From assembly GCA_030295235.1 (NCBI GenBank), contig AP026131.1:372001-436000 (forward strand): 64,000 nucleotides of DNA, written 5' to 3'. The notes under the pieces are model-generated. The model was not told where the DNA came from. It searched no databases and saw only the letters and a list, made by a program, of their open reading frames with translations. This DNA is from Fistulifera solaris (Eukaryota; Bacillariophyta; Bacillariophyceae; Naviculales; Stauroneidaceae). The position numbers and the translations under genes are program-made. Positions 9,589-56,955 of this stretch are shown piece by piece. Position 1 is the stretch's first letter; every line of letters starts with the position of its first letter.

Positions 9589-9870
9589 TGGGATTTTTCA
9601 CGTGCCCAGAAAACGTGGGCAAGTGCTGTTTTCACATGTCCCGAAAATCTGGGAGAGTGCTGTTTTCACGTGTCCCGAAAATCTGGGCGAGTGCTGTTTT
9701 CACGTCTCCCGAAAATCTGGGCGAGTGCTGTTTTCACGTATCCCGAAAATCTGGGCGAGTGCTGTTTTCACGTCTCCCGAAAATCTGGGAGAGTGCTGTT
9801 TTCACGTGTCCCGAAAATCTGGGAGAGTGCTGTTTTCACGTGTCCCGAAAATCTGGGGGTGTGGTATTTT
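9589..9870. repeat. 34-nt minisatellite of CCCGAAAATCTGGG palindromes
   Basis: About eight head-to-tail copies of a 34-nt unit, core CCCGAAAATCTGGGAGAG followed by TGCTGTTTTCACGTGT. Unit length is constant; point changes alternate between copies (CTGGGCGAG/CTGGGAGAG, ACGTGT/ACGTCT/ACGTAT). Because 34 is not a multiple of three, all three forward frames stay open through it, giving spurious frames. It lies between the divergent ENT and DGAT2 genes and shares its core with the arrays near 12.6, 27.6 and 56.2 kb. Confidence 0.95.
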
Positions 9871-9970
9871 CGATGACGACGAGCACCGAGCTGCGCACCG
9901 CATCGAACTCGCTCGAACACTTTTTTCGACACATTCATACTTTTATATTGCCGGTTTTAATTAACTCATC

Positions 9971-11140
9971 ATGGCACCAAATAGTTTTACATTAAAGCAG
10001 CCGAGCAAGCAGCGTCAAGTGGGCTCATTGCGATGGTTCGTGGGCATGCTCATGGCGTCCACGTTCTCCATGGTCTATTTCGTGGCGCCATTTTACATGT
10101 TGACCGCGGCTGCTCTACTTCTTGCTGCTCCAACAAGTGCATTCACATGGGTTTATATAATGCCTATACTGGTATCTGCTTTAGTGAAGCCCCTGCCGAT
10201 GCCGTTTGTCCTGCGCTGGTTGCGACCGATGGTCGACTATTTCGATTACGAAGAAATCGTGGAATCGTCGCCTATCAATGTTCGCGAAGAAATTTTGTTG
10301 AAGGGAAAGAACTATTTATGTGTATTTCAGCCACATGGAGCTTTGTCGTTCACCGGAATTGTTTCTGCAGTGACCGCGGAACCGGCCTTTCAAGGTACGA
10401 TCGTGTGTGACTACAGACTAAAATAATAGTCTGACGACCTGCTGCTGCTGCTTTTATTACAAGTTTTCACGTTAAGGCTCTCATACTGTTGCTCAAACTC
10501 ATTCAGGAACTATGCCCACTGCGGTGGCCGATGCGGTTTTGTTGACACCGATTGTGAAACATGTGCTAGGGATTTTTGGAATTATTTCGGCGTCGAAACG
10601 AAGCATGCAACGCGCTTTGAAAAGGCCGGGACCCGAGGGCTGCGTTGTGCTCTACGTGGGAGGTATGGCGGAGCTGTTCTTGAGCTGCGAGAATAACGAA
10701 AAGCTTTATTTGATGAAACGAAAAGGATTCATCAAGCTTGCCTTGCAAGAAGGTGTCGACGTTGTTCCAATTTACTTGTTTGGTAACACCACAGTACTTT
10801 CCGTGCTCAAGAAGGGGGCTCTGGCTATGATATCTCGAAAGCTTCAGGTGTCGTTAACTTACATTTGGGGAAAGTGGGGACTACCCATTCCACGCGACTG
10901 CAAGGTGAGTTTTTTTTATAGTGGTGTTTGAAAATCTCTTACAGATCACGGCTCATGATATTGTTATTCCAGCTTTTGTACGTCAGTGGACAACCTTTGG
11001 GAATGCCAAAGATTGAAAACCCAACCCAACAAGATATTGATAAATGGCATGCGAAATATTGTAGCGAGGTCAAGCGGTTGTTCGACACGTACAAAGATCG
11101 TGTGCCCGAATACAAAGACAAACAACTTGAGATTGTGTGA
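9971..11140 (+). CDS. DGAT2: diacylglycerol acyltransferase type 2
   Basis: DGAT2 makes triacylglycerol from diacylglycerol and acyl-CoA at the ER. Three exons join in frame: 9971-10394, 10507-10904 and 10973-11140, with GT-AG introns of 112 and 68 nt, giving 329 residues. N-terminal hydrophobic segments (about 20-65) are followed by the active-site motif, here FQPHG instead of the common HPHG. Then come YVGGMAELF, RKGFIKLALQEGVDVVPIYLFGN and the C-terminal GQPLGMPKIENPTQQDIDKWH. The second acceptor was chosen because only it restores LLYVSGQPLG after the conserved lysine. Diatoms carry several DGAT2 paralogues, and which one this is cannot be told from sequence alone. Confidence 0.9.
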
Positions 11141-11488
11141 TTTCTTACAATAAAGATACTTTTTAACGTTTTAACTCTTACCCATTATCTCACATTAGTT
11201 ACATTCTTGTAAGTGCGAAAGCATTCATCTTTTATCGTGCATACCAGTAATAGCAGTGCCCTAGTTTCACGGAACTGTCTTCGATCGTACCGGTACCGGT
11301 ACCTGTTTCCACATTGAGGAATTGAGAACGCCGCGGACGAGAAAAAAAAGATCGCGACAGAGCGACAGAGCACTTCATCCATTCATCGTCCCTTTCCTTC
11401 ACAAGAGACGGATTCTGATACGAGCTTGACTTAAGAGTAGCTCTTTGCATATTGTCCTGTATATCAGCAATACCAGGTACTCATAACC
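11141..11488. other. intergenic, promoter side of the isochorismatase gene
   Basis: No gene is seen. The stretch contains a GTACCGGTACCGGTACC run at about 11288-11304, a word that recurs in several other gene flanks of this window. Confidence 0.5.
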
Positions 11489-12333
11489 ATGACTACGCTG
11501 CTCATTATTGATGCGCAAAAGACTTTCATCCCGGAGGAAACTTGGCCATTCCTACAGCAAATCAAGACGCCGTTCGTATTGCTCGATTGATTCGTGAGCG
11601 CGGCGAGTCTATTGACCGAATCGTAGCGACATTGGATACTCACCAAAAACTTCACATCGCTCATCAGTGGTTCTGGGAAGAGCGCCCCGCACCCTTTACG
11701 ATTATTTCGGCTCAAGATATTGCTGACGGCAAATACAATCCACGCGCATCGATTCGATTATCGAAATCTTTGTTGGACCCGGCTGTTTTTGAAGAAAGCA
11801 GTAAAGTCTTCGATGAAAAAGGTGAAATTGATGCTCGAAAGTATGCCCTGGAATATACGAGACGTCTGGAAGAACGAGGAAGGTTTCAACTTTGTATTTG
11901 GCCCGAACATTGTTTGATCGGCTCTCCGGGCCATGGTCTTGTGGACGTAATATCAGAAGCATTACACGGATGGTCAGAGCAGACCGGTCGGTCTGTCGAA
12001 TGGATTCTCAAAGGTCAAAACTTACTTACCGAAATGTATTCCGCGCTCGAGGCCGATGTGCCCGTCTCGGTGGATTCTTCATTTAACCACAACTTTCACC
12101 AAAAGTTACTCGAGTCCGAGAAGTTGGTTGTTTGCGGGCAAGCAATGAGTCACTGCGTTAACTATACGGTCCGAGATATTGTTTTACATTGGCCTGTGGA
12201 TGAAATGTCGAAGATCATCGTCCTCACGGATTGTGCTTCCGCGGTGCCAGGTTTTGAAGAGGCTGCTCTGAGTTTCCAAAAGGATATGGAGAGTATAGGA
12301 GTTCAGTTAAAGATGTCAACGGATGAATTTTGA
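11489..12333 (+). CDS. isochorismatase-fold cysteine hydrolase, nicotinamidase-like
   Basis: The fold and catalytic triad are visible: Asp8 in LLIIDAQK, Lys near 174 in ILKGQN, and Cys near 223 in SHCVNYTVRD. The nicotinamidase-like WPEHCLIGSPGHGL and LDTHQKLHIAHQWFW carry candidate metal and substrate ligands. The main open frame lacks the N-terminal strand. That strand (MTTLLIIDAQK) is encoded immediately upstream in another frame. One additional A in the A4 run at 11517-11520 joins them and gives the family-typical DFHPGGNLAIP, so I place the start at ATG 11489 (281 residues). Nicotinamidases feed NAD salvage, but relatives act on other amides, so the substrate is uncertain. Confidence 0.8.
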
Positions 12334-13475
12334 GGCTTAGGTGCTTCCATTTCGCGATCTGAATACTGTGGAAAGGGTTTTGTTTTTTCATGCACAACAG
12401 AGGCTCTTTATCGACCTTATGCGCACATGGATCTGGTACTGTATAGAGGGATGTCTGCTAAAAATAAAAGCCACTTGCCACCTTTGAAAAGTATGTCGGC
12501 TGTCTATCTGTTTATAAATACGTTACTTCTTGAAGTGTCGATACACAGAATTTCTGGCTGACACAAAAGCACGGATCTAACATGTTGTAATTCTAACGTT
12601 CACAGCATTCTGACAAGATCCAAAACACCGATTCCAGAATATCTGGAACGCCCACGAAATGTCTGTTTGGACTCAAAACAACTGGTCCAGAATTTCTGGA
12701 CCAGACCCACAGAATTTCTGGCTGACACAAAAACTGGATTCCAGAATTTCTGGAATTTGCACTAACTTGTTGTACTTTCTAAAAACACTAGTTTCCGATT
12801 ATCAGGAATGTTCACAGCATTTCTACATGACACAAAACAACGATTCCAGAATATCTGGAATGTGCACGAAATGTCTGTTTGACTCGAAACAACCGGTCCA
12901 GAATTTCTGGCTGAAACAAAAGCACGCATTCCAGATTTTCTGGAATTTGCACTAACTTGTTGTAATTCGCAAAATACTAATTCCCGAATATCAGGAACGT
13001 TCACAGCATTTTTACAAGATCCAAAACACCGATTCCAGAATATCTGGAATGTCTACCAAATGTCTGTTTTTTACTCGAAACAACTGGTCCAGAATTTCTG
13101 GACCAGACACACAGAATTTCTGGATGACACAAAAGCACGGATTCCAGAATTTCTGGAATTTGCACAAACTTGTTGTAATTTCTCAAAACACTAGTCTAGT
13201 TTCTAGGTCTCTAGTCTACTAGACTATTTTTCTAGACCTTATTTCGCACTGCGACGCGACGCGCACGCGCGCGACACCAGACGACCGTACGTCAGCCGTC
13301 GTCGCCCTACCATGATGGCGATGCCATGAATCTAAACGGTACCGGTACGGTACCTTGTACCTGGTAAACCCATGGCGATGCGATAGAGCTCGCGATCGTC
13401 GTCATCTCACAATTGAAAGACTATACTCGTTACTCGTTACACTTGCTGTTCCTTTTATTTCCTTTACAATTCTCA
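12334..13475. other. intergenic region dominated by a palindrome array
   Basis: No gene is seen. The array at 12548-13165 occupies most of it. The last 300 nt hold GC-rich GCGACGCGCACGCGCGCGAC, a GGTACCGGTACGGTACC run near 13338 and a half copy of the 14190 hairpin (ATGAATCTAAACGG at 13326). The end is the 5' flank of the bL28m gene. Confidence 0.6.
12548..13165. repeat. phased palindrome array (TTCCAGAATWTCTGGAA family)
   Basis: Palindromes of three arm types alternate: GATTCCAGAATATCTGGAA, GGTCCAGAATTTCTGGACC and ACAGAATTTCTGG. Core positions 12635, 12688, 12710, 12742, 12795 and 12847 are spaced 53, 22, 32, 53 and 52 nt. The higher-order unit is about 190-213 nt and about three copies are present. 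The order is the mirror image of the array at 27.6 kb, i.e. the same repeat in inverse orientation. Confidence 0.9.
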
Positions 13476-13931
13476 ATGTTTTCTATATTTAGGCCTCTTG
13501 CTCGAAATTTGAAAGGTTTTGTAAAGCCTATGGCTTGCACCGCAGGCAACGTAGCAATAACGCCGACCATCTCCCCGGTAGTGGATTTGCAACAGCGCTT
13601 CCGCAGCAATCGCTCTCGACGTGGACTGTACGACGGTAAAGATATTCGTTCCGGAAACAGCGTATCATTTAGTATGAAATCGACCAAGCGAAAATTCAAA
13701 CCAAACGTTTTCCTCAAGCGCGTCTATTCTGAAATATTGGACGAGATGGTTCAATTCCATTTGACGACTTCCGCCCTCCGTTCGATTGACAAAGCAGGCG
13801 GATTGGATAACTACCTTATGAAGAACGAGTTCACTGAGGGAGAAGGATTTGAAGTGAAGAGGAAAATCATGAAAAGACTCAAGAATCAAGCCCGATACGA
13901 GCGCAAGGCAGAAGAGAGATCGGCTGCGTAA
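13476..13931 (+). CDS. MRPL28: mitochondrial large-subunit ribosomal protein bL28m
   Basis: The core RSRRGLYDGKDIRSGNSVSF followed by KRKFKPNVFLKRVYSEIL matches bL28, which pairs a basic loop with 23S-like rRNA. The tail TTSALRSIDKAGGLDNYLM is the feature of mitochondrial bL28 (yeast Mrpl24) that bacterial proteins lack. The N-terminus MFSIFRPLARNLKGFVKP is basic and acid-free, fitting a mitochondrial presequence. The ATG at 13476 is chosen; an alternative is MACTAGN a few codons on, if CTATATTTAG just before RPLA is a splice acceptor of a 5' intron. About 151 residues, single exon as read. Confidence 0.85.
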   Translation: MFSIFRPLARNLKGFVKPMACTAGNVAITPTISPVVDLQQRFRSNRSRRGLYDGKDIRSGNSVSFSMKSTKRKFKPNVFLKRVYSEILDEMVQFHLTTSALRSIDKAGGLDNYLMKNEFTEGEGFEVKRKIMKRLKNQARYERKAEERSAA

Positions 13932-14189
13932 AATTATCAAAGATATCTAGGCGGCCATTGCAGTTTCTTTCAGTTCAGTTGCTCTTCTTAGACTGTCTTA
14001 ACATGCCAGCTACCGTAGTTTCCGTGTAGACTGAGTGCTTGTCTCGAATTCACTGATTCACAGACTGTGGATTCAGATGTCTTCTATTTTGAAACCCAGG
14101 CACACAGTCACCGTTTGATAGACCTCTCGAAATAGTTTAATTATCTTCATGTTTGTCCTGTCGTTATTGATGTTGTTGTCGGAAGTTAC

Positions 14190-14220
14190 ATGAATCTAAA
14201 CGGTAAACGTTTAGATTCAT
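14190..14220. repeat. 31-nt perfect hairpin flanked by 8-nt direct repeats
   Basis: Arms ATGAATCTAAACG (14190-14202) and CGTTTAGATTCAT (14208-14220) surround the loop GTAAA. GGAAGTTA occurs at 14181-14188 and again at 14221-14228, like a target-site duplication. A single arm, ATGAATCTAAACGG, is present at 13326-13339. Confidence 0.85.
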
Positions 14221-14506
14221 GGAAGTTATTTCAAGACACTGATCGCACGGAATTTCTGTTTCTCAAAAGCATCAGCCAGACTTTCTGGTAACGCAAATAC
14301 ATCTCCTACAGAGTTTCTCTGTGTCACAAAATGCACTTCCAGATTTTCTGGTCAGACAGACACATTTCAAACAGAATATTTCTGTCTTAATCACCCAGAT
14401 TTTCTGTTAACCCTACAGACCAAAGTTAATGATAACCTTACTGCAGACTGAAAGGTGCGTCGAAGATTCATTTCATCCACTTCGTCATTCATCTTTCATG
14501 TTGGAA

Positions 14507-14516
14507 TATATATAAA
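14507..14516 (+). promoter_or_regulatory. candidate TATA element
   Basis: TATATATAAA lies 44 nt before the ATG of the nitrilase-like gene. Distance and sequence fit a TATA box with a short leader, but diatom core promoters are variable, so this is only a candidate. Confidence 0.3.
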
Positions 14517-14559
14517 TGTCAACGTGATGCTCTGTTGTATCTAAAAGAAAGTCAACAAT

Positions 14560-16017
14560 ATGCCTTCTGAAGAGGACCCGCTTTTACCCACCCAAGGAAC
14601 GGAGGCGCCGGATGAGCTACGTAGCAACAGCAAGTACGCCATCTTTCGTTCTGTCGGCATTGCACTTGTCTTCGGATCGCTTCTTGTTCTAGGATTCTTT
14701 GCCATTCGAAAGGAATTTGTACCCAAAATCTGGCAAAGAACAAAGAATAGTTATTATGAAAATGACGCTCTAGAGATGGAAGATGACGAATACAAAGGTC
14801 GCTACACTGCAACGCAATTCATCAGTTTCACCATCAACACAATGGGCGGTTCGGCCGAACATGGCGAATGCGAAGGCCTGGATGTTGACCCTAAATCAGG
14901 GCTCTGTTACTTGGGAAACAAGAACATCACCAAAGACGTACTTCATCGCTTTAGAATCATTGAAGAGTCGTTACGGAAGCTCGTCGATCATTCACGGACG
15001 AAGAACAGTAAAATCGACCCAAGTCCCAAAGTTTTGAAGATATTCATGGTGCCCGAGTTCTTCTTTCGCGGTCCCAACGGAGCCTACTCTGTCGAGGATA
15101 TGAGAGATGATCAGGTCGATGACTCCAAGGATGGCGTTCTTATTCAAGCATCCGATCGGATGCGGGCTTTTATCGCGGACGATGCCTTCCAAGATTTTCT
15201 GTTTGTCTTTGGCACAACAATCATTGCCCAGTCACTCGACAACAACCCCGAAGATAATATCGACTCAGAGAAACCATGGATGACCAACAACACGAAAGGG
15301 GATCAGGTTCTGTATTACAATTTCGCTCCCGTTGCAAAGGGTGGCAGAGGGCACAATCACCACTATTTGTTTCAGAAGAAGTACATTAGTGGAGTTGACT
15401 TTTTGTCGCGAACCAAGCTACCCAATCCACGCGATTCGCATGTCAGTCGATACGCTGATCCTTGGGAAGAGCTGGAAAAGACATTAGCACTTCGGGGAAC
15501 GACGATTGTCGACAAGAACATTATTGAATTGGATGGTATTCGGATCGGTTTGGAGATATGCCTCGATCACCGGATCGGGGTACTCTGGAATACCATCACG
15601 AGTGAGCGGCATCCTCATTTGGTTGATGTTCAACTCATTACTAGTGCCGGAATGTCGATTCAACGAGGGCCCAATCCGATTGTGCCCGGTGGGGTTGTTT
15701 ATCTTACCGATGGTGGTGCATCCTCTGCTGCCTGTGTCCGAACAAGCAGTGCTCCCTTTGATCCTGAAATAATTTGTCGACAGAAACCTGACGGGCTGAA
15801 ACATGTTCCGGTGGGAGGTCCAGGTTATAGTAATTTCATCGAACTCGCTGGCTGCCTCGACCTGGAGAACACCACTCTTCTACACTATTACTACAGCATC
15901 TATCAAGACCAAGGGTGTGCTTACACGTTAAAAACCTACGGAATTGACGTGATAGATGATTTGAAATTCTATCCTCCGAGCCTAGAGATCTATCCTACGG
16001 TTGATCTTCCCCTTTGA
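14560..16017 (+). CDS. membrane-anchored nitrilase-superfamily protein
   Basis: After a short acidic cytosolic head with a dileucine-like EEDPLLPT, one membrane segment lies at about residues 28-48 (SVGIALVFGSLLVLGFFAI). The remaining 430 residues would be lumenal or extracellular. The nitrilase triad is present: Glu166 in VPEFFFRGPNGAYS, Lys near 272 in FQKKYISGVDF, and Cys334 in RIGLEICLDH. Long inserts separate these and the domain is more diverged than plant nitrilases or amidases. Family enzymes cleave C-N bonds of nitriles or amides, or condense them; the substrate here is unknown. The start is the ATG at 14560, preceded by a TATA-like element. Single exon of 485 residues with several Cys in the C-terminal part. 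Confidence 0.75.
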   Translation: MPSEEDPLLPTQGTEAPDELRSNSKYAIFRSVGIALVFGSLLVLGFFAIRKEFVPKIWQRTKNSYYENDALEMEDDEYKGRYTATQFISFTINTMGGSAEHGECEGLDVDPKSGLCYLGNKNITKDVLHRFRIIEESLRKLVDHSRTKNSKIDPSPKVLKIFMVPEFFFRGPNGAYSVEDMRDDQVDDSKDGVLIQASDRMRAFIADDAFQDFLFVFGTTIIAQSLDNNPEDNIDSEKPWMTNNTKGDQVLYYNFAPVAKGGRGHNHHYLFQKKYISGVDFLSRTKLPNPRDSHVSRYADPWEELEKTLALRGTTIVDKNIIELDGIRIGLEICLDHRIGVLWNTITSERHPHLVDVQLITSAGMSIQRGPNPIVPGGVVYLTDGGASSAACVRTSSAPFDPEIICRQKPDGLKHVPVGGPGYSNFIELAGCLDLENTTLLHYYYSIYQDQGCAYTLKTYGIDVIDDLKFYPPSLEIYPTVDLPL

Positions 16018-16436
16018 GTTTGTTCTTACAGGATCCTATCGAATGAATATTGATCAGTGCACTACAAATGCCGCCATAGACCATAAAGTTGCGTAAGAAG
16101 CAGAGTAGGTTGAGAATCTCGCGGGACGAAGGAAGCTTAGGTCTGAGGTTGCAGTGCATAATGTCGCCTCACGAACCATGAATTCATGACTGAAATGCAG
16201 TCGTGGAAAAAGTCGTCTTCACTTTGCGTTATAGTAAACGAACGTAACCTTATTTATATTGTACCTGCTAGAAAACGATATTGATGCAGTATGTTCTTGT
16301 TTTATTACAAGTATACGGAGTACCGGTAAGGTCTTACATATTTTTGCGATGCGCGATGAGCTGGTTTATTTTCATTCTCATTATACATTTTGGTCACTTG
16401 TTGCTGTTGTACTGTGCCCGATTCTTGAAATCTGAA
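16018..16436. other. intergenic with a dispersed hairpin element
   Basis: No gene is seen. A minus-strand copy of the dispersed hairpin element is at 16185-16234: GACTGAAATGCAGTC, then CACTTTGCGTTATAG about 20 nt later. The frame of the next gene is open through the second half, but I see no reason to extend the protein that far. Confidence 0.5.
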
Positions 16437-21408: not shown

Positions 21409-22712
21409 GTTCGCAATGTGTATGAGTGAGAAAACGACTTTCAGATCTATACAATGACGGAATAACAATGATAGCGAAAGCGGCGACGATGATAATGGAT
21501 AATGCGGAGAAAAAAACGAGAGCAAAAATGTTAACATAGAGACGCAAAAAATACCAGGTACCGGTACTATGGCTCAAAGTGTTGCTAAACTTTACCATGA
21601 CTGCACTTCAGTCATGAGTCGTCAAGATACTTCCGAGACTCCGAGATTTCCTAGACAAGCTGCTGCCATATTTTCGATCGTTCTGCTAGCTTATTGTCTT
21701 TCTGAGAATAGTTTCACTGCCAGCATTGTTTCTAGTGCAGGAAAATATAATTTGCGTTGAAGAGCTTTTCAAGATCGTTGTCTTCCGTTTTTACTATGGC
21801 CCAAAGTGATGGTTCAACGAATCCACGACTGCATTTCTGTCATGAGACACGATATTATTTTCCTCGACAAGCTGCTGCCATATTTTCGATCGTTCTGCTA
21901 GCTTATTGTCTTTCTGAGAATAGTTTCACCGCCAGCATTGTTTCTAGTGCAGGAAAGTATAATTTGCGTTGAAGAGCTTTCGAATTCTATGTCTTCCGTT
22001 TTTACTATTGCCCAAAGTGATGGTTCAACGAATCCACGACTGCTTTTTTTCTGTCATGAGACACGATATTTTCGAGACAGACGGCTGCCTTATTTTCGAT
22101 CGTTCTGCTAGCCTAATAAACTACAATTGTCTTTCTGGGAATAGTTTCACTGCCAGCATTGTTTCTAGTGCAGAAAATATTTTGCGTTGAAGAGCTTTCG
22201 AATTCGTTGTCTTCCGTTTTTACTATGGCCCAAAGTGATGGTTCAACGAATATCCACGACTGCATTTCTGTCATGAGTAAAATATGTTCATGCTTCATGC
22301 GAGACGCGCAGCAACGTCGTCTTTCAACTGTTCACCTAGAAAGACTTAATCCACGACACAGACCCCCTTCATGGTTGCATTTAGACTCTAGAACCGAAAC
22401 AGCAACATCTATATCTTGGACAATGGAGAGTCGCATCCTCAAACTGTCTTGTTGTGAAGAGTCATCTAGGTTCAGCAATAATCAGTTTGCAGGGAGAGAT
22501 GTGGATGGCAAAAGGGAAAGACCAAGACGGGCACTGGTAATATTTTATTGATATCATAAATGGATTTTCTAGAGCCATTTATGGCGTAATTCACATTAAG
22601 ACAAACCTTATGAGAATATACTATTAGCGTGATAAACTCCGGTCCGGCCTCAACTGATGCAAAGCAAACTTTGTCGTTGTCTAGCACAGTAATGGTTCCA
22701 ATGTTTGAATAG
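21409..22712. other. intergenic with tandem repeats
   Basis: No gene is seen. 21566-22280 is a tandem repeat described separately. 22281-22712 lies at the 3' end of the next minus-strand gene and holds no convincing coding sequence. Confidence 0.5.
21566..22280. repeat. tandem repeat of about 210-228 nt, 3.3 copies
   Basis: Copies begin with CTATGGCYCAAAGTG at about 21568, 21796, 22007 (variant CTATTGCCC) and 22223. Each contains a hairpin word GACTGCATTTCTGTC or GACTGCACTTCAGTC, then TTTCGATCGTTCTGCTAGC and GTTTCACTGCCAGCATTGTTTC. The last copy is cut off soon after the hairpin. The first copy is preceded by GGTACCGGTAC. Short frames inside begin at the ATG of CTATGG and are not conserved as proteins. 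Confidence 0.9.
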
Positions 22713-27603: not shown

Positions 27604-28640
27604 AAATTCCAGAAATTCTGGAGGTCTTATTTATGATCATACAGAAATTCTGGAGGTCTTATTTATGTTCATACAGAAATTCTGTGGTGATCCAGAAATT
27701 CTGGACCAGTTGTTTCGATACGAACGAAAAGCTGTGCTCGTTCCAGAACTTCTGGCAATGGTGTTTTAAATCATAACGAATGCAAATGCGCGTTCCAGAA
27801 TATCTGGAAATGTTAATTTGGATCATAACGAAAGGAAGTGGAAATTCCAGAAATTCTGGAAATCTTATTTCTGTTGATACAGAAATTCTGTGTTGGTCCA
27901 GAAATTCTGGACCAGTTTTTTCGATCCTTACGATAAGCTGTGCATGTTCCAGAACTTCTGGCAATGGTGTTTTGGATCATAACGAAAGCAAATGCGCATT
28001 CCAAAATTTCTGGATATTGTTATTTGGATCATAACGAAAGGAAATGGAAATTCCAGAAATTCTGGAAATCTTTTTCTGTTGATACAGAAATTCTGTGGTG
28101 GTCCAGAAATTTTGGACCAGTTGTTTCGATCCTCACGAGAAGCTGTGCTCGTTCCAGAACTTCTGACAATGGTGTTTTGGATCATAACGAATGCAAATGC
28201 GCGTTCCAGAATCTCTGGAAATTGTTATTTGGATCATAATGAAAGGAAGTGGAAATTCCAGAAATTCTGGAAATCTTATTTCTGTTGATACAGAAATTCT
28301 GTGTTGGTCCAGAAATTCTGGACCAGTTTTTTCGATCCTTACGATAAGCTGTGCATGTTCCAGAACTTCTGGACAGGGTTGTTTGGATCGTAACGAAAGC
28401 ACATGCGCGTTCCAGAATTTTTGAGAATTTCTGGAAAAATGTGTTTTGGATCATAACGAAAGGAAGCGGAAAATCCAGAAATTCTGGAAATCTTATTTCT
28501 GTTCATACAGAAATTCTGTGGTTGTCCAGAAATTTTGGACCAGTTTTTTCGATTCTAACGAAAAGCTGTGCTCGCTCCATCACTCGCCCACATTTTCTGG
28601 ACACGTCAAAACATCACCCGCCCACATTTTCTGGACAATT
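27604..28640. repeat. phased palindrome array, units of about 205-238 nt
   Basis: Five units are marked by TTCCAGAAATTCTGGAA at 27607, 27845, 28051 and 28256, and a variant near 28472. Inside a unit the order is TTCCAGAAATTCTGGAA, ACAGAAATTCTGT, GGTCCAGAAATTCTGGACC, TTCCAGAACTTCTGG and TTCCAGAATATCTGGAA. Core spacings measured in one unit are 32, 19, 51, 52 and 52 nt. Spacers carry GGATCATAACGAAAG. At the 3' end (28590-28670) cores degrade to CACATTTTCTGGAC. Confidence 0.95.
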
Positions 28641-28713
28641 GAAAATACCACGTGCCTGGATTTTTCTGGCCAAGTTGAAACATACCACATGCCCAAGTGA
28701 AAGATGGAAACAA

Positions 28714-28866: not shown

Positions 28867-29376
28867 ATGTTTTTCCCAATCCAATTATATCACTGCGTCA
28901 TCCTTCTTGCAACAAACTTGTTTGTTGTACAAGCATGGCAGAGTTCGTTTACCGGTGTCGCCATGTCGCGCAAAAAGTATTGGGCGTCAAGTTGGACCAT
29001 GCGTGACAGATCCGCAAGTATGGCGTTTCGCGTCGGAGATCGTGTCCAAGTGACGGAAGATCTGGTCTATCGCGACATGAAGTTGAAACACCGTCAAGGG
29101 ATTGTCGTGGAAACGTGGGAAAAATGTGAAGTCGATCCGACGTGTTGTTGTGCCGAGCAAGTGGACGTCAATATGGCCGTGCGTGTGGATTTTCAGCAAG
29201 AGGGTGGTGTCGTATTTACTCACTACTTTGGGGAAGATGAACTAGCTTTAGTTGCAAAGAAGAATGAAGCATTTGACGGCATAACTTGCACAGCATTCAA
29301 GCTAGAGCAGCTCGAACGCAATCAAAAACCGAGATCGATCGCATCCTTTAATCCGAATCAAACGGAGGACGATTGA
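28867..29376 (+). CDS. small plastid-type protein with SH3-like barrel
   Basis: The ATG at 28867 begins MFFPIQLYHCVILLATNLFVVQA followed by WQSS, a signal peptide with an aromatic residue after the cleavage site, as expected for diatom plastid import. The mature protein (169 residues in total) contains FRVGDRVQVTEDLVYRDMKLKH and GIVVETWEKCEVDPTCCCAE, then MAVRVDFQQ and FTHYFGEDELALV. That pattern of short strands and a VGDRV start suggests an SH3-like barrel comparable to small cyanobacterial and plastid accessory proteins, with a distinctive CEVDPTCCC cluster that could bind metal or be redox active. The family is not firmly identified. The open frame upstream runs into the palindrome array and should be ignored. 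Confidence 0.7.
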   Translation: MFFPIQLYHCVILLATNLFVVQAWQSSFTGVAMSRKKYWASSWTMRDRSASMAFRVGDRVQVTEDLVYRDMKLKHRQGIVVETWEKCEVDPTCCCAEQVDVNMAVRVDFQQEGGVVFTHYFGEDELALVAKKNEAFDGITCTAFKLEQLERNQKPRSIASFNPNQTEDD

Positions 29377-30804: not shown

Positions 30805-32203
30805 TGAGAACTCATAAAAGTCTTAAACCGATTATTCATTTTGTTCTATCCGAGCTTGTGCCGTTCCATTATTTGTTTTCAGTAGTGGGAGCGTTACTGC
30901 AATCTGGTCGCGGTCTCGTACAACCAACACACTGATCCTATAGTGACAATAGCAGTCAACGATCCGGACGCTCTTCGAAGGTGTAAATCAAGACATTGCG
31001 TGTCAAATGAGAATTCGTAAAAGTCTTTAAATTGATTATTCATTTTGTTCTATCATTTATGGCCGAGCTTGTCGCCGTTCCATTCGTTTTCTTTAGTTGG
31101 AAATTGGAGCATGACTGAAATCCAGTCGCGGTCTCGTACAACCAACACACTGATCCTATAGTGACAATAGCAGTCAACGATCCGGACGCTCTTCGAAGGT
31201 GTAAATCAAGACGTTGCGTTTCAAATGAGAATTCGTAAAAGTCTTTAAATTGATTATTCATTTTGCTCTATCATTGGTGGCCGAGGTTGTCGCCGTTCCA
31301 TTCGTTTTCTTTAGTTGGAAATTGGAGCATGACTGAAATCCAGTCGCGGTCTCGTACAACCAACACACTGATCCTATAGTGATAATAGCAGTCAACGATC
31401 CGGACGCTCTTCGAAGGTGTAAATCAAGACGTTGCGTGTCAAATGAGAATTCGTAAAAGTCTTTAAATTGATTATTCATTTTGCTCTATCATTGGTGGCC
31501 GAGGTTGTCGCCGTTCCATTCGTTTTCTTTAGTTGGAAATTGGAGCATGACTGAAATCCAGTCGCGGTCTCGTACAACCAACACACTGATCCTATAGTGA
31601 TAATAGCAGTCAACGATCCGGACGCTCTTCGAAGGTGTAAATCAAGACGTTGCGTTTCAAATGAGAATTCGTAAAAGTCTTTAAATTGATTATTCATTTT
31701 GTTCTATCATTTATGGCCGAGCTTGTCGCCGTTCCATTCGTTTTCTTTAGTTGGAAATTGGAGCATGACTGAAATCCAGTCGCGGTCTCGTACAACCAAC
31801 ACACTGATCCTATAGTGATAATAGCAGTCAACGATCCGGACGCTCTTCGAAGGTGTAAATCAAGACGTTGCGTTTCAAATGAGAATTCGTAAAAGTCTTT
31901 AAATTGATTATTCATTTTGTTCTATCATTTATGGCCGAGCTTGTCGCCGTTCCATTCGTTTTCTTTAGTTGGAAATGGGAGCATGACTGAAATCCAGTCG
32001 CGGTCTCGTACAACCAACACACTGATCCTATAGTGATAATAGCAGTCAACGATCCGGACGCTCTTCGAAGGTGTAAATCAAGACGTTGCGTTTCAAATGA
32101 GAATTCGTAAAAGTCTTTAAATTGATTATTCATTTTGTTCTATCATTTGTGGCCGAGCTTGTCGCCGTTCCATTCGTTTTCTGTAGTTAGGTTGGAGCAT
32201 GAC
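30805..32203. repeat. 218-nt tandem satellite, six to seven copies
   Basis: The unit length is exactly 218 nt: equivalent points are 31040, 31258, 31476, 31694, 31912 and 32130. The lowest copy (30805-31007) is diverged and the highest is truncated. Each unit carries the hairpin word GACTGAAATCCAGTC, GGTCTCGTACAACC and CACTGATCCTATAGTG. On the minus strand each unit gives a 73-residue frame whose start overlaps the previous stop as ATGA, a consequence of 218 being 2 modulo 3. Confidence 0.95.
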
Positions 32204-32214
32204 TGAGTACAAAT

Positions 32215-44503: not shown

Positions 44504-46251
<1,748 letters not shown>

Positions 46252-47917: not shown

Positions 47918-50900
47918 ATGTCGTTTTTAAGCTCTGGAATGGCAGGAGACATTTGGTCTACCGGTGCGTTCTCATTCGAATCCCCGCTCAAGGATTTACT
48001 TGACTCTGGCGACTACACGACCGAACAGCTTTTAGCAGAAGATGAATTACTTCAAGAAATAAGAGGGCTTCATCCTCAGCTTATCAGCTTTTTCTCTACA
48101 CCAGAAGCTGTAACGAAACTCGTTCGTTACGTTATACTTCCGTCGGAAGAGTCTCAAACAAACGATGGAAATGGGAAAAGACAAACCGAAAGGACCCTGG
48201 AGATTGGCTGAAAGAGCATTTGGATAAGAACGAAAACGATTCCAAAATGCCTGAAAATGATCCGGAGATCAAGCATGTACGCTTCCCCTACATGGCATGT
48301 GAAATTATCTGTTGCGAAATAGATTCCATCATAGACGTCCTCGTGGACGGCAAAGTGGCAACGGAAGAACAAAAGCTGATAGAAAATCAGCCATCGAAGG
48401 TCAACGACGAAACGAGCACTGATGATGCATCTAGCGACATGCGTATATTAGACTTGCTGTTCTCTTTACTTTATGACACCAAATCGGGAGAGCTTGATGA
48501 TTATCGAGCGGGGTATTTTGACAAGATTCTGACCGTACTCTTTCGTAAGCGGCCGGAAGATCTTGTAAACTTCATCAACGAGGGAGGAGCATCGGGTACC
48601 CACGCACTTATGGAATCTGTATTTTCTCATCTATATTCTCATTCGATCATGCAAATTGCTCAAAGGCTTATGCTACCAAAAGGCCGACGCCCCCACAGCC
48701 CCCCTCCCGAAGATAATGGAGCGGAAATTATTGCGGAAGAACACCAGCTAGAAGATGATTTGGCCGTCTACTGCAACTGGTCACAGTCGAATGATGCGTT
48801 AAACATGTTGCTAAATATACTGACTGATCCAAAGCCACCGTCAGCTCCAATGAGCAAAGAAGAAAATGATGAGTTCAAATTGGATATGTCTTTGAACGCG
48901 TCAGAAGTGCTCATCACGGTTATTCAGAATTCCATGCTTAGCTCTGAAACTATGCTCTCGTTAACGAAATCCGAAACTATCAAGAGACTGGTCCTTGCGG
49001 CGACCACAATTCGGTGTGAAGATGGGGAAGAGTCATTCTTTAGCCCCCATGAATCCCTCTTGACATCAGCAATGAATGTATTAGAAAGTCTGATATTACA
49101 GCTCGGTGGTTACGGAGCCGTGGGAACTATGTTCCTGCTTCCGGAAGAAGAAGGAGGGCAGCTGATGGAAGGTGCGGTTTCTGAAGATCATCAGCATTTG
49201 ATTGCTGACCTGGAATCCGTTCTTGAACACCTCCCTCTTTGCTATCAGAAATGTCTAATCTTCTACGGCATCCGTCGACTAAGAAATGGCGATCGTTCAT
49301 GCAATTTTCTCGGTCTGAACCGCAACCTTTACTTGGCAACTCTCGTCTTCGGATTGTAAGAGTGCTCGAGTCGCTTGTCCTTCTTGGAGACGCCGAGGTC
49401 GACGCGATGTTAGTTCAGTCGGATTGCTTAGAAATATGTCTAAATCTCTTCTGGGATTTCCAATGGTGTTCAATGCTGCACCAATCGGTCGCCAACTTAT
49501 TGGTTCACGTTTTCGAAGGTCACAACGCACGTTTTGCTATGCAAGAATACTTTTGATTAAATGCAATCTACTCGGTAGGTTGATGGAGTCGTTCATGGAA
49601 CTGCAAGAGGAAGACAAGGTTTCAGAGGTGGTATCGAATTTGGAAAACATCAATGTTGCGGGGACTGCGGGGAGAGTGACAAGAGCATCACGAATGATCC
49701 ACTGCTGGTGTCAGAAGATGATGTCGAAGCAGCAATCGAGAAACAAGAGCTGGAAGACGAATCTTCTTCCTCTACTAAACAAATCCTTTTTTCGAATGTG
49801 GAAGAACTATCTACAAATGCTGTCCAGCTAGAACGTCGCGATACATCAACTATTGGTGCAGCTGCCCCGTCACAGTCGTTCCGTTTTGGCTATATGGGCC
49901 ACGTAATTATCATTTGTCAAGCTCTGGTTCATGCATGTGCCACCGAAGTAGAATCAGAGGAGCAGATGCTTATGCAAAATGGTGGCTCGCCGGAAAGCCC
50001 ACCACCTGAAGAGACCGAGCCCCTCCTGTTGGCGGAGCTCGTTGCGAACCATGCTTTATCTGAAAGATGGACTGAGTTCATATCAACAACCTTAGCTTCA
50101 GAAACAGTGATACAGTCGACCCCACTTGGTGGCTATGGTTCAGGACAGGATCCTTTGCACGCGCATCGTCCAGGTCTAGCAGATGATGATGACATCGATG
50201 ACGATAATATGGGACCGCCGGTGCCGCCAAGAGGGATTGGGGGATTTGATATGGATGAAAATGATTTGGACATAGCGGCGAGTATAATGTCTGGCTTTTC
50301 CTTATCACAACATCGCAGGGACGGTGATGCCGGGTCGAACGACGCTGGTTCATTGGGGTCGGGCGATTCGGAAAGGTCATACAATTCGGGAGAAACGGCT
50401 AGCGAACGAAGTGGCTATGCGTTCGATGATCCGTTAGGAAAGGCTGGGTCACTTGGCATCGAACTGGGGAAGCTAACGAAATACAAGGAGAGCTCCGGTC
50501 AAACGTCGAAAGATTCAGGAAGTGGCTATGCGTTCGATGATCCGTTGGGAAAGGCTGGGTCACTTGGCATCGAACTAGGGAAGCTAACGAAATACAAGGA
50601 GAGCTCCGGTCAAACGTCGAAAGATTCAGGCGATGTAGAGGACGACGACACGTCGTCTGGTTCGTCGTCTGACGATGAACAGATTTCTGGAGAAGGCTCT
50701 GATGAAGTTCCTGTCATGGATCTTTTGCTGGGAACTTTGACTACAACCAGACCGATGAAGATGTAGCAAAGCAACCGCAAGTTGCTGAGTTTACTGATTT
50801 CGCCAAATTTGATGAAGTTGACGAAGATTTTGGTGAATTTGTTGAGGCAGCCCCACCAACATCTCAAGAAACAGAAAGTTCATCATCAAGTCCAGAAGAT

Positions 50901-51044: not shown

Positions 51045-51308
51045 GATACGATAAAGTCTTTCACTTTATTTCGTAACGACCTTTTACTTGTTCTATTATC
51101 ATCGTCGACCAGCATCGCTGAGTTTGCGCCATCTTAGTTATTTCACTGACACCCGCTGTTCTACTACATCTTCAATGCAAGTATTTGGTAGCGGCAAAAG
51201 CAAAGTTTTCTTACATACATTATTCATATATGTTTTCTATAGGAGCGTACTCCGTTTCAAAAGTGGAGTCTTGCAAGGTCACGCGGTGGTAGACTTCTGA
51301 CCCCAAAA

Positions 51309-52880
51309 TTAGCAAGATGAGACAAAGAGATTGAGACCGTCGATGACTGGTCCATAGTTAAAATCCGGTATATTCATATCGTAAAAGTGCATACAGAGAA
51401 CGGAGACAATAATTCCAGCGCTCACCCCGCGGTACATTACTTTGGTTGCGCCGGCGTTGACAATCTTGTCGACCGCCACTCCCACCAAAACGACCGAAGT
51501 CACGTGAATGATAACCAGAAGCAAAGAATAGTCACAAAAGCACTCTCCGGATATTTGGATTCTTGATCTGTTTCAGAAAGACGACCAACGAAGCATCGTA
51601 CACCATCCGAATAATTCTCGCTAAATTGCGTCGAAGGATATTGCTCCGTCCAGTCGCCGTGCGCACCTAGCCCCTGCAATACAAATAAAAGAGGTGACAT
51701 GACAGATGCTACAATGAACTGAAATGTCGCCAGCAGCAGATTCAAGTAGTTCATATTGACCGGTTGCTTGTATTGTAAAAAATACGTGTTCTTTATAAAG
51801 CTGTGTGAAGACGGGGATGAGCACATAAATGTAATAATACTATGACACAAAACAAAGTCGAACATACCGTTACGATAGCAGCAGGGACGCAGCTCGAGAC
51901 ATATAACAAGGTGTTAATAGCGGTCCTTGTTGGAATCGAATCGGCGTACATGAATTCGTTGGGGTCAATCAGCGTAACAAAAGCCGGAAGGAGAGCAAAC
52001 ATGACGGCGAAAAATAAAATGAGTGATCCCCACACGTGTTCTTTGGCCAGACCTCCATAACCCGACACGGCTGTCCTCGGGGGTAAATCCGAATCTGCGG
52101 TACACGTCTCGTTGACGAGACTCGACAAGGCGCTGGTTGTTGGACTTCGCTCCGTCGACGATGTATGGCGTCCATCTGCCCCGTTACTTGTATTGCGAGC
52201 TCTACGGGTATCTTGATCGGACTTACGATTAAGTGAACACAGTCCATCCGGATGACCGAACTGAGTGAGAAAAGCTGTCAAGGGCAGTGTGAATTGTACC
52301 AAAATGACGGTCAAAGTGGGAGGAACACGGTAACCGGAAACAAAAACTAGTAGTATGCAAAGCGTGTCGAGGAGTGCCATGATACCCACATCAATCAAAG
52401 GTATTCCCAACTTGATTTTCGAACTGGGTGTTTTCAAAAGTATCCTGTCATGACGATAATTCCCAACAAGAGAGCGTGGGCGCCTGTGACGGCTTCTACG
52501 GTGAGAAGACGAAAGGGAGCGGTTCGGTCGACTAACAGCTTGAAAGTCGATCGTTCCCCAGCATACGAGAGGGCCAAAATGACGAACCAAAATAAGACAA
52601 CAAGATGATTGCGTCGTCTTTGATCGATAGAAAGCTCCATATCGGAATCCCAGAGGTTTTCAACATTTGCAATGATCCGTAACGAACTTTTCAGTCGATT
52701 CCAGACCCAATAAATGAAAGAAGATTGATTGCTTTGACTTTGATTGTCATGATCAATGTCGGATTCGTCTTGCCATTGATCATCTAACGTCTCATCGTAG
52801 GATTGCGTATCATAGCCATCCGTCTCGGAAGTAGCCCCGTAATTGCGTATTCGGGTGTCCAGTTGAGAATGTTCGTTCAT
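51309..52880 (-). CDS. CRT-like (chloroquine-resistance-transporter-like) membrane transporter
   Basis: CRT-like carriers belong to the drug/metabolite superfamily; plant members move thiols and glutathione across plastid envelopes. After an acidic Asp/Gln/Ser-rich cytosolic head come about ten hydrophobic segments: HLVVLFWFVILALSYAGE, DVGIMALLDTLCILLVFV, the Gln-Pro motif VPPTLTVILVQFTLPLTAF, a Ser-rich loop, HVWGSLILFFAVMFALLPAF, LYKE before QPVNMNYLNLLLATFQFIV, and MLLVIIHVTSVVLVGVAVDKI. One intron is at 51801-51867. Frame continuity needs one base more in A4 52436-52439, one fewer in A6 51777-51782 and one more near GG 51549-51550 (plus-strand letters), giving 501 residues. Location and substrate are unknown. 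ATG at 52880. Confidence 0.75.
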
Positions 52881-53566
52881 TCTCAAAAGAATTTGTTGCA
52901 GTAGCGGTAATTCTCACAACCCAGTAACTAGCAGAAAGACTATCGATTATCTCTTCGAGATTCGTATTACAGCTTGCTGTACTTCAGCATAGTCTGTTTG
53001 AGTTCTAAATTGTAGACGACACAAGGAAAATAATATGTTTTTCTCATTCCTTGTCAACACTCGTGGGTGCGTTTTATTGTTGTTGTTCTTCTTGCGGCGA
53101 TAAAACGAGCGACGTGTTCGCGAGACCGCGATTGGATAAAGATGTAGACGGTACTTTACAAGCGATACATAACCCAATACTCTTAACCAGGAAGTAAGTG
53201 TTGTAAACCGTTACGACATGTTTTGATGTGAGAAATTCTGGTTCGATAAAGATCTTCCTCCGCACCGCATTTTCTCGCTTTTACTGTACTGTATACGAAA
53301 AGGACGTGGCAAAGATCCAGTGTCACACCTACCACGGTATTTCTTTTAATTTTCGGTTGTACGTTACCCTTTACAAAGCTTAATAAGACGATGAGAGGAG
53401 CTGTTTGTTGAGGGGGAGAAAAGAAGAAGAAAGAAAGGTCGACAACACGGAATACTTGACTGAGAACATCGACGTTTTCGCCATGGATACAGGTGCGACG
53501 TTCGAGTATTAAAAGCCTTTTTTCTCTACAACATCTTACAAGATTTTCCTAACAGAATTCGGCTGG
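52881..53566. other. divergent intergenic region
   Basis: Shared 5' flank of the CRT-like transporter (minus) and the multicopper oxidase (plus). I see no gene or strong repeat. Confidence 0.5.
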
Positions 53567-55186
53567 ATGCATGCTGTTATCAGTGTCGGGTTTCTTTTGC
53601 TCGTCGGTGTGCAACAATTTCATCTCCTAGTCCCTCCCGATCAATCATTACATCCACAATCACACGATCCCTGCCGCGAGAATTGCGGTTCCTTTCTCGG
53701 CCTCTTTCCCAAATACAAATTATGTCACGACAGTACATCTCAATCTTATTGTACAGCGTTTCCTCGCTGGCATCAAAGAGATCCTTTTGTATCTTGCGGT
53801 GACTGTCAGCTTGTCGAGGAGTCATCCACCGAATTATCATTGAATGGAGACCAGGATGAAAAAGGCATTCTCGTCGATTTTCACTGGGAAGATGCTTGTT
53901 CGGATTCGCCTTATGATTATGTGGGAACCTTAGTTTTTTGCGAGCAGGAAAACGGGACGTTTGGCTATCGATCCTGGAATGATGCGCTCCCTTGCGGCTC
54001 GTCATCACCGCTTCTACGATTGCGACCCGGTTTTGCGTATCAGTTGCGACTCATCAATGAGGCCAGCGAACCCACCAATTTACATCCGCACGGACTCTAT
54101 GTCTCGGGAGATGGGAATGCCGATGACATTACTCGCTACGCTGGACCCGGAGAATGTTTACTCTTCAATTGGACCCTCTCCGAGGATCACATGGATGGAA
54201 CCTTTCTATATCACGCGCATCGACACAACATTACCAATCATCAAGTCAGTGGAGGAGCCATCGGAATGCTGTTTGTCGATACGGCTACTCCGCAAACCCG
54301 ACCTTCATGGGTCGACCGTGAAAAGCTTTTATTTATAAAATCGTCCAAGGACGAAGATTTTGTCAACGGCATGCCCAAGCTGCATGTACCCTTGATAGCC
54401 AATACCTGGTATCGTTTCCGCATAGCCGTCGGAGATGCTCGGGGTAAATTGCGCAGCCTCCGTTTCGATCCAGAACAATGTGAGGTTCGTCTCGTGGCCG
54501 CCGATGGAGTTTGGCGCAGTCGCGGCGCGGCGGCCCCCGCGTTTCACTATGAGGTGACCGGATCGACTCGCATGGATTTGGCCGTGGCTTGTCAATCGTC
54601 CAGTGGTATCTGGTATCGTGTGAATTCGACGGACGATGCAGAACCTATCGTTGTATTGGACGTATCCGAAGGTCCTGCGGAACTCAATGCGCTAGAAGAA
54701 TGGATCCCCCCTCGACCTTCTCATTTGCAAAGTATAGCAAACTTGGACATGGACGATACTTGGAACATTACCATTTCGAAGGAAACTGGAATCAATGGCT
54801 ATCTATACGATCACGAACGACCCATTGAGACTTTTGAATTTGGTCAGTACCATCAATGGCGATTGTACAACACGGACCGCCATCCGTTCCATCTACACAT
54901 CTATCATATGCAAATTGTAACCCCGGGCGGATGCGGCAACATTTTTGAAGAGGGTGAATGGTACGACACAATCAGTGCCGATGCAGCTGTTACCGATCAC
55001 TGTACCGTCCGATTTCGTATGAACGCCTTTTCGGGACGAACCGTTTTGCACTGTCATCAGTTGAGCCACGAAGACTTGGGTGTGATGGTGTGGACGGACG
55101 TGATTGGGGGCCCCGACAATAGTTTTTTGCAGGTGGGGAGTCGAGAAACAGTGTTTTGCGAAATCTGTGCGCTGCTTTTAATTTAA
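53567..55186 (+). CDS. multicopper oxidase, secreted
   Basis: All copper sites can be read: LHPHG and YHAHRH (first trinuclear half), HPFHLHIYH (type 1/type 3), and VLHCHQLSHEDLGVM with the type 1 Cys between His residues and an axial Met. Multicopper oxidases oxidise phenols, Fe(II) or Mn(II) while reducing O2 to water. A signal peptide (MHAVISVGFLLLVGVQQFHLLV) and a Cys-rich N-terminal insert (CRENCGSFLGLF, CGDCQLVEESS) precede the first cupredoxin domain. Length is 539 residues, within the laccase/ferroxidase range. In diatoms such enzymes can serve iron uptake as ferroxidases, but no iron permease is adjacent, so this is only a possibility. ATG 53567; single exon as read. Confidence 0.88.
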   Translation: MHAVISVGFLLLVGVQQFHLLVPPDQSLHPQSHDPCRENCGSFLGLFPKYKLCHDSTSQSYCTAFPRWHQRDPFVSCGDCQLVEESSTELSLNGDQDEKGILVDFHWEDACSDSPYDYVGTLVFCEQENGTFGYRSWNDALPCGSSSPLLRLRPGFAYQLRLINEASEPTNLHPHGLYVSGDGNADDITRYAGPGECLLFNWTLSEDHMDGTFLYHAHRHNITNHQVSGGAIGMLFVDTATPQTRPSWVDREKLLFIKSSKDEDFVNGMPKLHVPLIANTWYRFRIAVGDARGKLRSLRFDPEQCEVRLVAADGVWRSRGAAAPAFHYEVTGSTRMDLAVACQSSSGIWYRVNSTDDAEPIVVLDVSEGPAELNALEEWIPPRPSHLQSIANLDMDDTWNITISKETGINGYLYDHERPIETFEFGQYHQWRLYNTDRHPFHLHIYHMQIVTPGGCGNIFEEGEWYDTISADAAVTDHCTVRFRMNAFSGRTVLHCHQLSHEDLGVMVWTDVIGGPDNSFLQVGSRETVFCEICALLLI

Positions 55187-55510
55187 CTTATTCATAAAGT
55201 TTTATTTTTGAAGTGTAACTTAACAAAAGGCGAGTATTGTTGGTGCAGTATTTTCGTTTAGATGATTAACGAGCATTATAGATCTATTCACGTTTCACGT
55301 TAGCCAGAGTTTAGTTCACGACTGGGCAGCGCACGACCTTCGCCCGTCCTTGTACGGCGATACGATGCGATGAACCTCGATGAAAAGCATGAAAAAAAAC
55401 ATCGCGCCACAAAACGCAATGAACACTTAGTCAAGATAAACATAGACTACTTGTAACTCCTCTCGCAATCAATTGTACTTTAAAGTTCATTCCTTTGTTC
55501 TCCTTTTAAA
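55187..55510. other. intergenic, 5' flank of mL41
   Basis: About 320 nt. I see no gene or repeat. Confidence 0.5.
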
Positions 55511-55916
55511 ATGAATGCGATTTTCCAGCAACTGAATTATACAATTCGACAGCGCGCAACGGATACAATCTGTTGGCTGCAGCAACAACGTCACATGTCC
55601 AAGTATTTGAGCAAGGCGGCTAAGAAGCGATTAGTGCTGACAACCAAACGTGCCCACAAAGGCTTCTACAAAGGAAATGGAGCAACTAAAGAAGGAAGAC
55701 TGACAAGCAAAGGGAAATTTATTGTCGACCCTTTAAGACGATTGGAGTTAGTAATTCCGGATTTGACAGGTTTCAAAGTACGTCCCAACGCATACATTAT
55801 TTTGTGATTCGTATATACTCTAATCGCTCATCTTCACTTCTCAGCTAAAGCCATACATTGCCCGAAGTGTCCCGAAAGTACCTCCTGAGCAGCAGCGAAA
55901 CCCCATCAGTCGCTAG
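55511..55916 (+). CDS. MRPL41: mitochondrial large-subunit ribosomal protein mL41
   Basis: Exons 55511-55777 and 55845-55916 join across a 67-nt intron (GTACGT...TCTCAG) to give 112 residues. The conserved block GFYKGNGATKEGRLTSKGKF followed by LRRLELVIPDLTGFKLKPYIA matches mL41 (yeast Mrpl27), a mitochondrion-specific large-subunit protein. The splice is required: without it the frame ends after TGFKVRPNAYIIL, while the spliced form gives the family ending TGFKLKPYIARSVP. The N-terminus (MNAIFQQLNYTIRQRAT) is basic, consistent with import. The tail PEQQRNPISR is short and lineage-specific. Confidence 0.88.
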
Positions 55917-56955
55917 GCCTCGTGTCGAAACCAGGGTGAATAATGGTATATATGAAGCGTCTTAGGGAACCCGTTGGACAATGAAACAATTAAACACCAC
56001 CCATTATTCTAAAAAAATCCGAATTTGTGTTTAGAATTTACTTTTAGGTATGATGCTATTCAATGAATTGAAACCGACACTGTTGAGGCTTTAGTGATGG
56101 TCAAGTGCGATTGCAACAAGAGCAATTACAGTGATAACAATGCCATAAACAACAACTTCGGAAGCATCAAGAGCATTAAGCATATCATGAGACGAATTTG
56201 AAACAGAATTGCCCCTTTTAGGACTTGTTGTAGATTTACGTTCCCAGAAAATCTGGGAGATTGGTATTTACACTGGTCCAGAAAATCTGGACGAAATGCC
56301 CTTTCACATTATCAGAAAATCTGGAAGATTGGTATTTACACTTGTCCAGAAATTCTGGACAAGTTGCATTATCAGATTCTCAGAAAATCTGGGAGAGTGG
56401 TATTTACCTGGTCCAGAAAATCTGGACCATATGTATTTTCACGTTCCCAGAAAATCTGGTTGATTGATATTTACACTGGTCCAGAAAATCTGGACCTTAT
56501 GTATTTTCACGCTCCCGGAAAATCTGGTTGATTGATATTTACTTTGGTCCAGAAAATCTGGACCATATGTATTTTCACGCTCCCAGAAAATCTGGTTGAT
56601 TGGTATTTACTCAGGTCCAGAAAATCTGGACCTTATGAATTGTCACGTTGACAGAAAAGCTGATAGACTGATATTTACTCTGGTCCAGAAAATCTGGACC
56701 GTATGTATTGTCACAATCCCAGAAAATCTGGTTGATTGATATTTAAACTGGTCCAGAAAATCTGGAGATGTTGCATTTTCACAGTTAACTACAATGCTGT
56801 CTGGTCGTCGCTCGTCATCGGCATCCTCGGCGCTCGGCGGCGCATCTTTTACGTCGCGTCGTTAAAAGACACAAAAATGGAGACGAGCTGTACGCTGTAC
56901 ACAACCTTTCATTTGAAGGTGCTCATTGACGATACACTTGCAAAACGTTTACACC
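55917..56955. other. intergenic with a palindrome array
   Basis: No gene is seen. The array at 56238-56770 precedes the RAB5IF-like gene by about 190 nt. Open frames through the array are artefacts of its composition. Confidence 0.65.
56238..56770. repeat. phased palindrome array, 34/68-nt period
   Basis: GGTCCAGAAAATCTGGACC-type palindromes recur at 56275, 56343, 56410, 56478, 56546, 56614, 56682 and 56749, i.e. every 68 nt. Halfway between are CCCAGAAAATCTGG palindromes, e.g. cores at 56244 and 56278, 34 nt apart. Spacers are TATGTATTTTCACG and TTGATTGATATTTAC. The 34-nt spacing equals that of the array at 9.6 kb. Confidence 0.95.

Follow-up and report, generated by a model that had tools for sequence, protein, structure and literature searches.

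Introduction

The nearest known kind of repeat to the palindrome-bearing tandem arrays described here, which lie in a 64,000-nucleotide stretch of diatom nuclear DNA (the window; C9:372001-436000), is the dispersed euchromatic satellite, from which they are set apart by a short dyad with covarying flanks and by their placement in gene 5′ flanks. The 1.688 satellite of Drosophila likewise forms short, gene-proximal euchromatic arrays concentrated on one chromosome set; however, its unit is about 359 bp long and it is linked to X dosage compensation, and to our knowledge it carries no short promoter dyad. Bacterial REP/BIME elements are spread by REP-associated transposases. Their clusters resemble the diatom arrays in being short palindromes gathered in extragenic DNA (PMC3733652), but they are bacterial, whereas the diatom arrays are nuclear, tandem, and placed in 5′ flanks. 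TCAST1 of Tribolium castaneum also occurs as short satellite arrays through euchromatin near genes, varies between strains, and has a proposed or reported effect on neighboring genes; on the other hand, its mother array is large and pericentromeric, and introns harbor 29 of the 68 elements (PMC3411249, PMC4537270). The passages describing TCAST1 in these two reports mention no short dyad with covarying flanks, whereas the sampled diatom arrays adjoin gene 5′ ends. Circular DNA is cited as a proposed route of satellite spread (PMC5844308).

The genome searched (51.7 Mb in 61 contigs) appears to be that of an allodiploid diatom, probably Fistulifera solaris, a known allodiploid (PMC5935921). Diatoms are also the source of the named relatives found for one window protein. 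Promoter motifs reported for F. solaris, such as TABASTA, are likewise short and present in uneven numbers between subgenomes, but that study relied on short-motif discovery in 500 bp upstream, and the words “palindrom,” “tandem,” and “CCAGA” are absent from its main text (PMC5935921). We found no description of the present arrays in open-licence literature, titles and abstracts. The genome contains 151 HSF_DNA-bind matches (with exon pieces and homoeologs each counted separately), a large expansion with many homoeologous pairs, and the positions of these domains reveal matched contig pairs, namely C1/C2, C3/C4, C5/C6, C9/C10, and others.

Results

The palindrome-bearing tandem arrays of the window are real, as a preliminary description of this DNA, made from its letters, had held. 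The window contains 57 CAGA-N1-4-TCTG sites, versus 4-8 in five second-order Markov simulations, and 65 perfect palindromes with arms of at least 7, versus 24-31 in three first-order simulations. The 17-mer singled out in that description for a genome-wide search, TTCCAGAAATTCTGGAA, has 1,021 exact matches (476 + 545), while its reversed control has 0; the same holds for GGTCCAGAAAATCTGGACC (111 + 136 matches, 247 in all), CACAGAATTTCTGTATGAT (41 + 72; 113), and GGTCCAGAAATTCTGGACCAG (211 + 192; 403), each with a reversed control of 0. Array sequences align between dozens of loci, mostly at 70-88%. A viral source was considered and rejected: 20 viral contigs carry one exact 17-mer each and never an array, which we read as chance, although no chance figure was computed.

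Two unit systems, of 34/68 bp and 20/32/52 bp, are built from a common dyad with the core CAGAnnnTCTG, and their units run in tandem, head to tail. The 34/68-bp period is seen at window 56238-56766 and at C1:137146-138199, while at window 27610-28579 and C1:101129-103486 sites 20, 32, and 52 bp apart are nested in repeats of about 206-214 bp. These two spacing systems replace the fixed spacing that had been claimed, and the single shared core, CCAGAA(n)TTCTGG, is not carried by the array at 9.6 kb, where seven of eight copies read CCCGAAAATCTGGG, one base short of a palindrome. No special 10.4-bp periodicity is present: across 117 spacings, R is 0.27 at 10.4 bp, compared with 0.25 at 12 and 0.42 at 17. 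We therefore rejected the placing of sites at whole helical turns, an arrangement that would suit a homodimer array but is not strictly required by one.

To characterize the dyad, we used 449 sites from 26 arrays, picked by one half only (CAGA), and 240 copies from 22 arrays, picked by an intact AGAnnnTCT and hence leaving out the broken-dyad arrays; identical copies per array were collapsed in both sets, and membership in the family was judged by eye for three arrays on C1, at 47.7, 77.8, and 134.8 kb. In the one-half set, the opposite half pairs at 78-85% for positions ±2 to ±5, versus 20-31% in 423 background sites, with symmetric sites counted once per strand (single counting gives 75% of 449 at ±5). 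Complementarity at ±6, 7, and 8 is 0.70, 0.57, and 0.45, versus 0.50, 0.44, and 0.31 with right flanks shuffled within each array, giving z values of 10.7, 7.4, and 7.4, which overstate the number of independent events because the symmetric types are few (TTCC..GGAA, GGTCC..GGACC, CCC..GGG, ACA..TGT, and CACA..TGTG) and shared by descent. Farther out, z is 2.2 at ±9, -2.1 and -2.7 at ±10 and 11, and 0.2 at ±12. The set with both halves intact gives z values of 9.8, 6.3, 8.3, and 5.3 at ±6 to 9, followed by 0.4, 0.7, 2.2, and -0.7. These data reveal a dyad of about 17-19 bp, the flank letters of which vary yet stay complementary to about ±8.

Placement relative to genes was scored by a retrained home-made coding model together with open frames, for 25 arrays: five in the window, seven in C1:1-200000, one at C1:522861-523194, and 12 at loci L053-L064, which are exact-word clusters on C1 between 200 and 931 kb, which biases the sample toward word-rich arrays of a single contig. 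It does not include the clusters at C1:240 and 480 kb, and a two-site pair at C1:518333-518363 is unclassified. One array (L056) was unplaced and left out, and three (L058, L060, L063) were placed on one side only. Among the 24 placed arrays, 12 lie between divergent genes, nine are tandem (upstream of one gene and downstream of another), three have only a 5′ side assigned, and none is convergent. Convergent gaps make up 14.1 of 101.0 kb of intergenic DNA (36 of 132 gaps) and divergent gaps 25.5 kb (35 gaps), totals that rest on gene calls which wrongly took several arrays as coding. The probability of 0/24 convergent placements is 0.027 by intergenic bases and 0.0005 by number of gaps, and 12 of the 21 arrays with both sides known are divergent, where divergent gaps hold about 25% of intergenic bases (P = 0.002). 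In a strict set of 16, picked by hand, convergent members are again absent (P = 0.09) and eight are divergent (P = 0.029). The earlier observation that divergent genes flank two of the window arrays on both sides, and convergent genes none of them, thus stands and extends to the wider sample, and the promoter placement claimed from it is borne out, with modest statistics, as an avoidance of convergent gaps; that all arrays adjoin 5′ flanks adds nothing further, because any non-convergent place adjoins a 5′ end.

Four stretches of the homoeologous contig C10 (L049-L052) can be aligned to the window: the long blocks of L049-L051 match at about 81-88% and a single 175-base repeat piece at 70%, while L052, its array excluded, matches at 86-90%. 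A C10 counterpart exists for two of the five window arrays, with diverged units. The L28 gene of C10 (L052, about 830-1560) has a full yet diverged 52-type array at the equivalent place, in which four of nine CAGA..TCTG sites are of an ACAGA..TCTGT type found in none of 12 in the window array, and the C10 divergent promoter near 28 kb (L050, 8920-9040) has a short degenerate 34-type array matching the place of window 28580-28700. By contrast, no CAGA..TCTG site occurs in the C10 promoters of the DGAT2-type gene (L049), the RAB5IF-type gene (L051), and the nitrilase-like gene (L052, 2555-2992), the counterparts of the arrays at 9595-9871, 56238-56766, and 14252-14406, respectively. This comparison indicates that an array can hold its position even as its units change, and that arrays can be gained or lost. 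The array-free DGAT2-type promoter (L049, 7550-8120) has, by eye, its own different short repeats (ATCGATGTAGGG, TCTACGTG..).

Among the matches listed, arrays are apparently far more frequent in one parental half of the genome. Odd- and even-numbered contigs among C1-C6 hold 92 and 7 of the listed matches to GGTCCAGAAATTCTGGACCAG (100 of 403; 1 more on C7) and 75 and 14 of those to GGTCCAGAAAATCTGGACC (100 of 247; 11 more on C7); for CACAGAATTTCTGTATGAT the division over C1-C24 is 85 to 4 (100 of 113; 11 more on higher contigs), all of these being parts of the genome’s matches and not whole tallies by subgenome. Likewise, among the best 40 of 505 candidates, all 98 pieces matching the 206-bp array, including the window’s own, lie on one member per known pair, namely on C1, 3, 5, 7, 9, 11, 13, 15, 17, 19, 21, 23, 28, 30, 32, 36, and 38, although for C7, C17, C21, and C28 the pairing has no support from matching positions. 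Arrays of the 34 type are present on both members of contig pairs. Over 26,339 aligned bases, the window copy has a G+C content of 0.462 versus 0.458 for C10 (1,197 versus 1,076 sites), a slight excess that gives a weak hint that the window belongs to the higher-GC subgenome of PMC5935921.

Within the window, the five arrays lie where they had been described. At 9595-9871, a 34-bp array of eight copies, seven of them with the broken dyad, separates a minus-strand frame (8946-9488) from a DGAT2-type gene (ATG 9971). A 20/32/52-type array with 12 AGAnnnTCT dyads (12546-13159) lies upstream of an L28 ribosomal protein gene (ATG 13476), and a degenerate array with four such dyads (14252-14406) upstream of a nitrilase/amidohydrolase-like gene (ATG 14560). 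The 206-bp higher-order array, with about 20 dyads (27610-28579), lies between a MIF4G-like gene on the minus strand and a plus-strand gene at 28867-29376, and at its edge degenerate 34-type units (CCCACATTTTCTGG) can be read from the sequence at 28580-28700. Finally, a 34/68-bp array with 14 dyads, in which GGTCCAGAAAATCTGGACC alternates with (T)CCCAGAAAATCTGG units (56238-56766), lies upstream of an EMC6/RAB5IF-type gene (ATG 56956). Pfam backs some of the genes flanking sampled arrays. Among the labels given earlier to the window genes, those of a diacylglycerol acyltransferase, an L28 ribosomal protein, and an EMC6/RAB5IF-type gene are upheld by it. It gives no match for the SH3-like plastid gene, the label of which is unverified, nor for the nitrilase-like gene, which does have two relatives named “CN hydrolase domain” and “predicted amidohydrolase.”

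Other repeats accompany these arrays. Window 145-266 and 1143-1267, upstream of a zf-MYND gene (1600-2250), hold another dyad array, unrelated to the first kind, which is of TATAGAGAGAAATTTCTCTCTATA type with a period of about 20 bp, and a third dyad family, of 30-bp tandem repeats with palindromes of 10-12-bp arms (ACTTTCATCA..TGATGAAAGT), lies at C1:75227-75347 and 75839-75912 (L016). Window tandem repeats of 224, 212, and 218 bp (3783-4404, 21647-22277, and 30888-32206, the last of which has about six copies matching at 97%) have no notable dyads. Tandem repeats of 424-425 bp at C1:73689-75029 and 169738-171306, the latter overlapping a predicted coding stretch, are probably one family, since ATTGCGCAAT is the best palindrome of the units at both places. 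At window 50408-50630, a predicted coding frame contains two almost identical copies of a 111-bp repeat, which form a 37-aa duplication.

Discussion

Taken together, these results reveal arrays that are homologous between loci, are biased toward one subgenome among the matches listed, turn over between homoeologs, avoid convergent gaps in the sample, and have kept their symmetry. We propose, with a probability of roughly 0.45, that they belong to a dispersed satellite superfamily, fast-turning and promoter-proximal, of an apparently allodiploid diatom, and that their dyad probably serves as a homodimer site. Such arrays would multiply by unequal exchange, would be copied between loci, for example via circular DNA or gene conversion, and would persist where chromatin is open, as in promoters that would tolerate them. 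The dyad would be kept in most arrays by the docking of a DNA-binding homodimer, or of several related ones that differ in their half-sites, and each array could then form a platform of closely packed sites, tuning or insulating neighboring promoters. The existence of several flank types, each of them symmetric, would be expected because a homodimer would read one half-site twice and related proteins would prefer different flanks. The putative cooperative dimer binding suggested in the preliminary description gains indirect support from the symmetric flanks; helical phasing of the sites is unsupported by their spacings.

The same symmetric flank types would also be explained by a hairpin-driven mutational process, for which the broken-dyad arrays count. 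A purely selfish or neutral satellite, landing or surviving in open 5′ flanks and owing its symmetry to hairpin template switching that perfects quasi-palindromes rather than to selection for a bound protein, is a tenable if somewhat less than even prospect. The selfish-repeat option raised earlier stays alive in that units are homologous across dozens of loci, arrays come and go between homoeologs, and some broken-dyad units have been amplified; moreover, arms reach 11-12 bp in some copies, and unrelated dyad arrays occur in the sample (AGAGAAATTTCTC, CTTTCATCA..TGATGAAAG), as a general mutational process would give. On the other hand, the CAGA/TCTG core turns up in the majority of sampled arrays, although these are of two unit types that otherwise differ, and covariation ends near ±9, which template switching does not predict. 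Nor are dyads universal: of 13 non-coding arrays with short units (15-120 bp; coding arrays were set aside by a hand-made list), six have longer dyads than shuffled units do, at P < 0.05. Several observations weigh against the proposed homodimer site and its promoter setting. No intact core is present in four of the 26 arrays (w9.6, c47, c77, and c134), the three on C1, at 47.7, 77.8, and 134.8 kb, having imperfect, CCAGAAAATGTGG-like dyads of the 34-bp system; the full opposite half is present in only 196 of the 449 sites (rows summed); a 25-base broken-dyad unit with CCCGAAAATCTGGG has nine matches, spread over five loci (one each on C3, C5, and C6 and two on C9) among which both members of one contig pair are represented; and in L055, L060, L061, and L064 units often have the form CCCAGGAAATCTGGG, with a mismatch at ±2. 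Amplification and persistence therefore need no perfect dyad. In addition, the covariation rests largely on about five symmetric site types, common to loci by descent, and the home-made gene calls leave several flanks weak (C1:180.4 kb, the plus-strand gene right of C1:137 kb, and L053).

More specific mechanisms fare worse. Heat-shock-factor-type platforms, using nGAAn elements inside the dyad, might be suspected from the 151 HSF_DNA-bind matches and from TTCnnGAA in 89 of the 240 copies, but canonical heat-shock elements, of three or more alternating nGAAn units with 2-nt spacing, occur in only four of the 240, and the GGTCC..GGACC and CCC..GGG types lack outer TTC/GAA, which makes this explanation improbable. 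It is quite improbable that the arrays belong to a DNA transposon or MITE, for instance as its subterminal repeats, that inserts upstream of genes: their spread over dozens of loci would fit, but in one query with extra flank the matches end near the array limits (usually 44-994 of 1131), the exceptions being a piece that starts at position 19 and another, of 49 bases, at 1000-1048. RNA hairpins in array transcripts, as a small-RNA source or 5′-UTR structure, are very unlikely; among 110 gene-oriented copies, G-T/T-G mispairs slightly exceed A-C/C-A mispairs (37 versus 24), but this strand asymmetry is weak, the stems are short, and Rfam gives no window match at gathering scores, so that we rejected the hairpin reading as unsupported.

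If a protein does bind the dyad, as we propose, the arrays may equip many promoters with preformed docking sites for a DNA-binding protein that acts as a pair, which could explain part of the homoeolog expression bias reported for F. solaris (PMC5935921). A bolder version, which we regard as doubtful, is that a lineage-specific satellite wired hundreds of one parental genome’s promoters to homodimeric regulators, one per symmetric site type, so that the subgenomes would carry different, rapidly rewritten platforms that set homoeolog expression bias. The DGAT2-type and RAB5IF-type genes, for which homoeologous promoters with and without an array share one nucleus, offer a natural test of a satellite becoming a promoter element, in which expression ratios of array-bearing versus array-free homoeologs are directly readable; the DGAT2-type gene would be of interest if the host is the oil-rich diatom that it seems to be.

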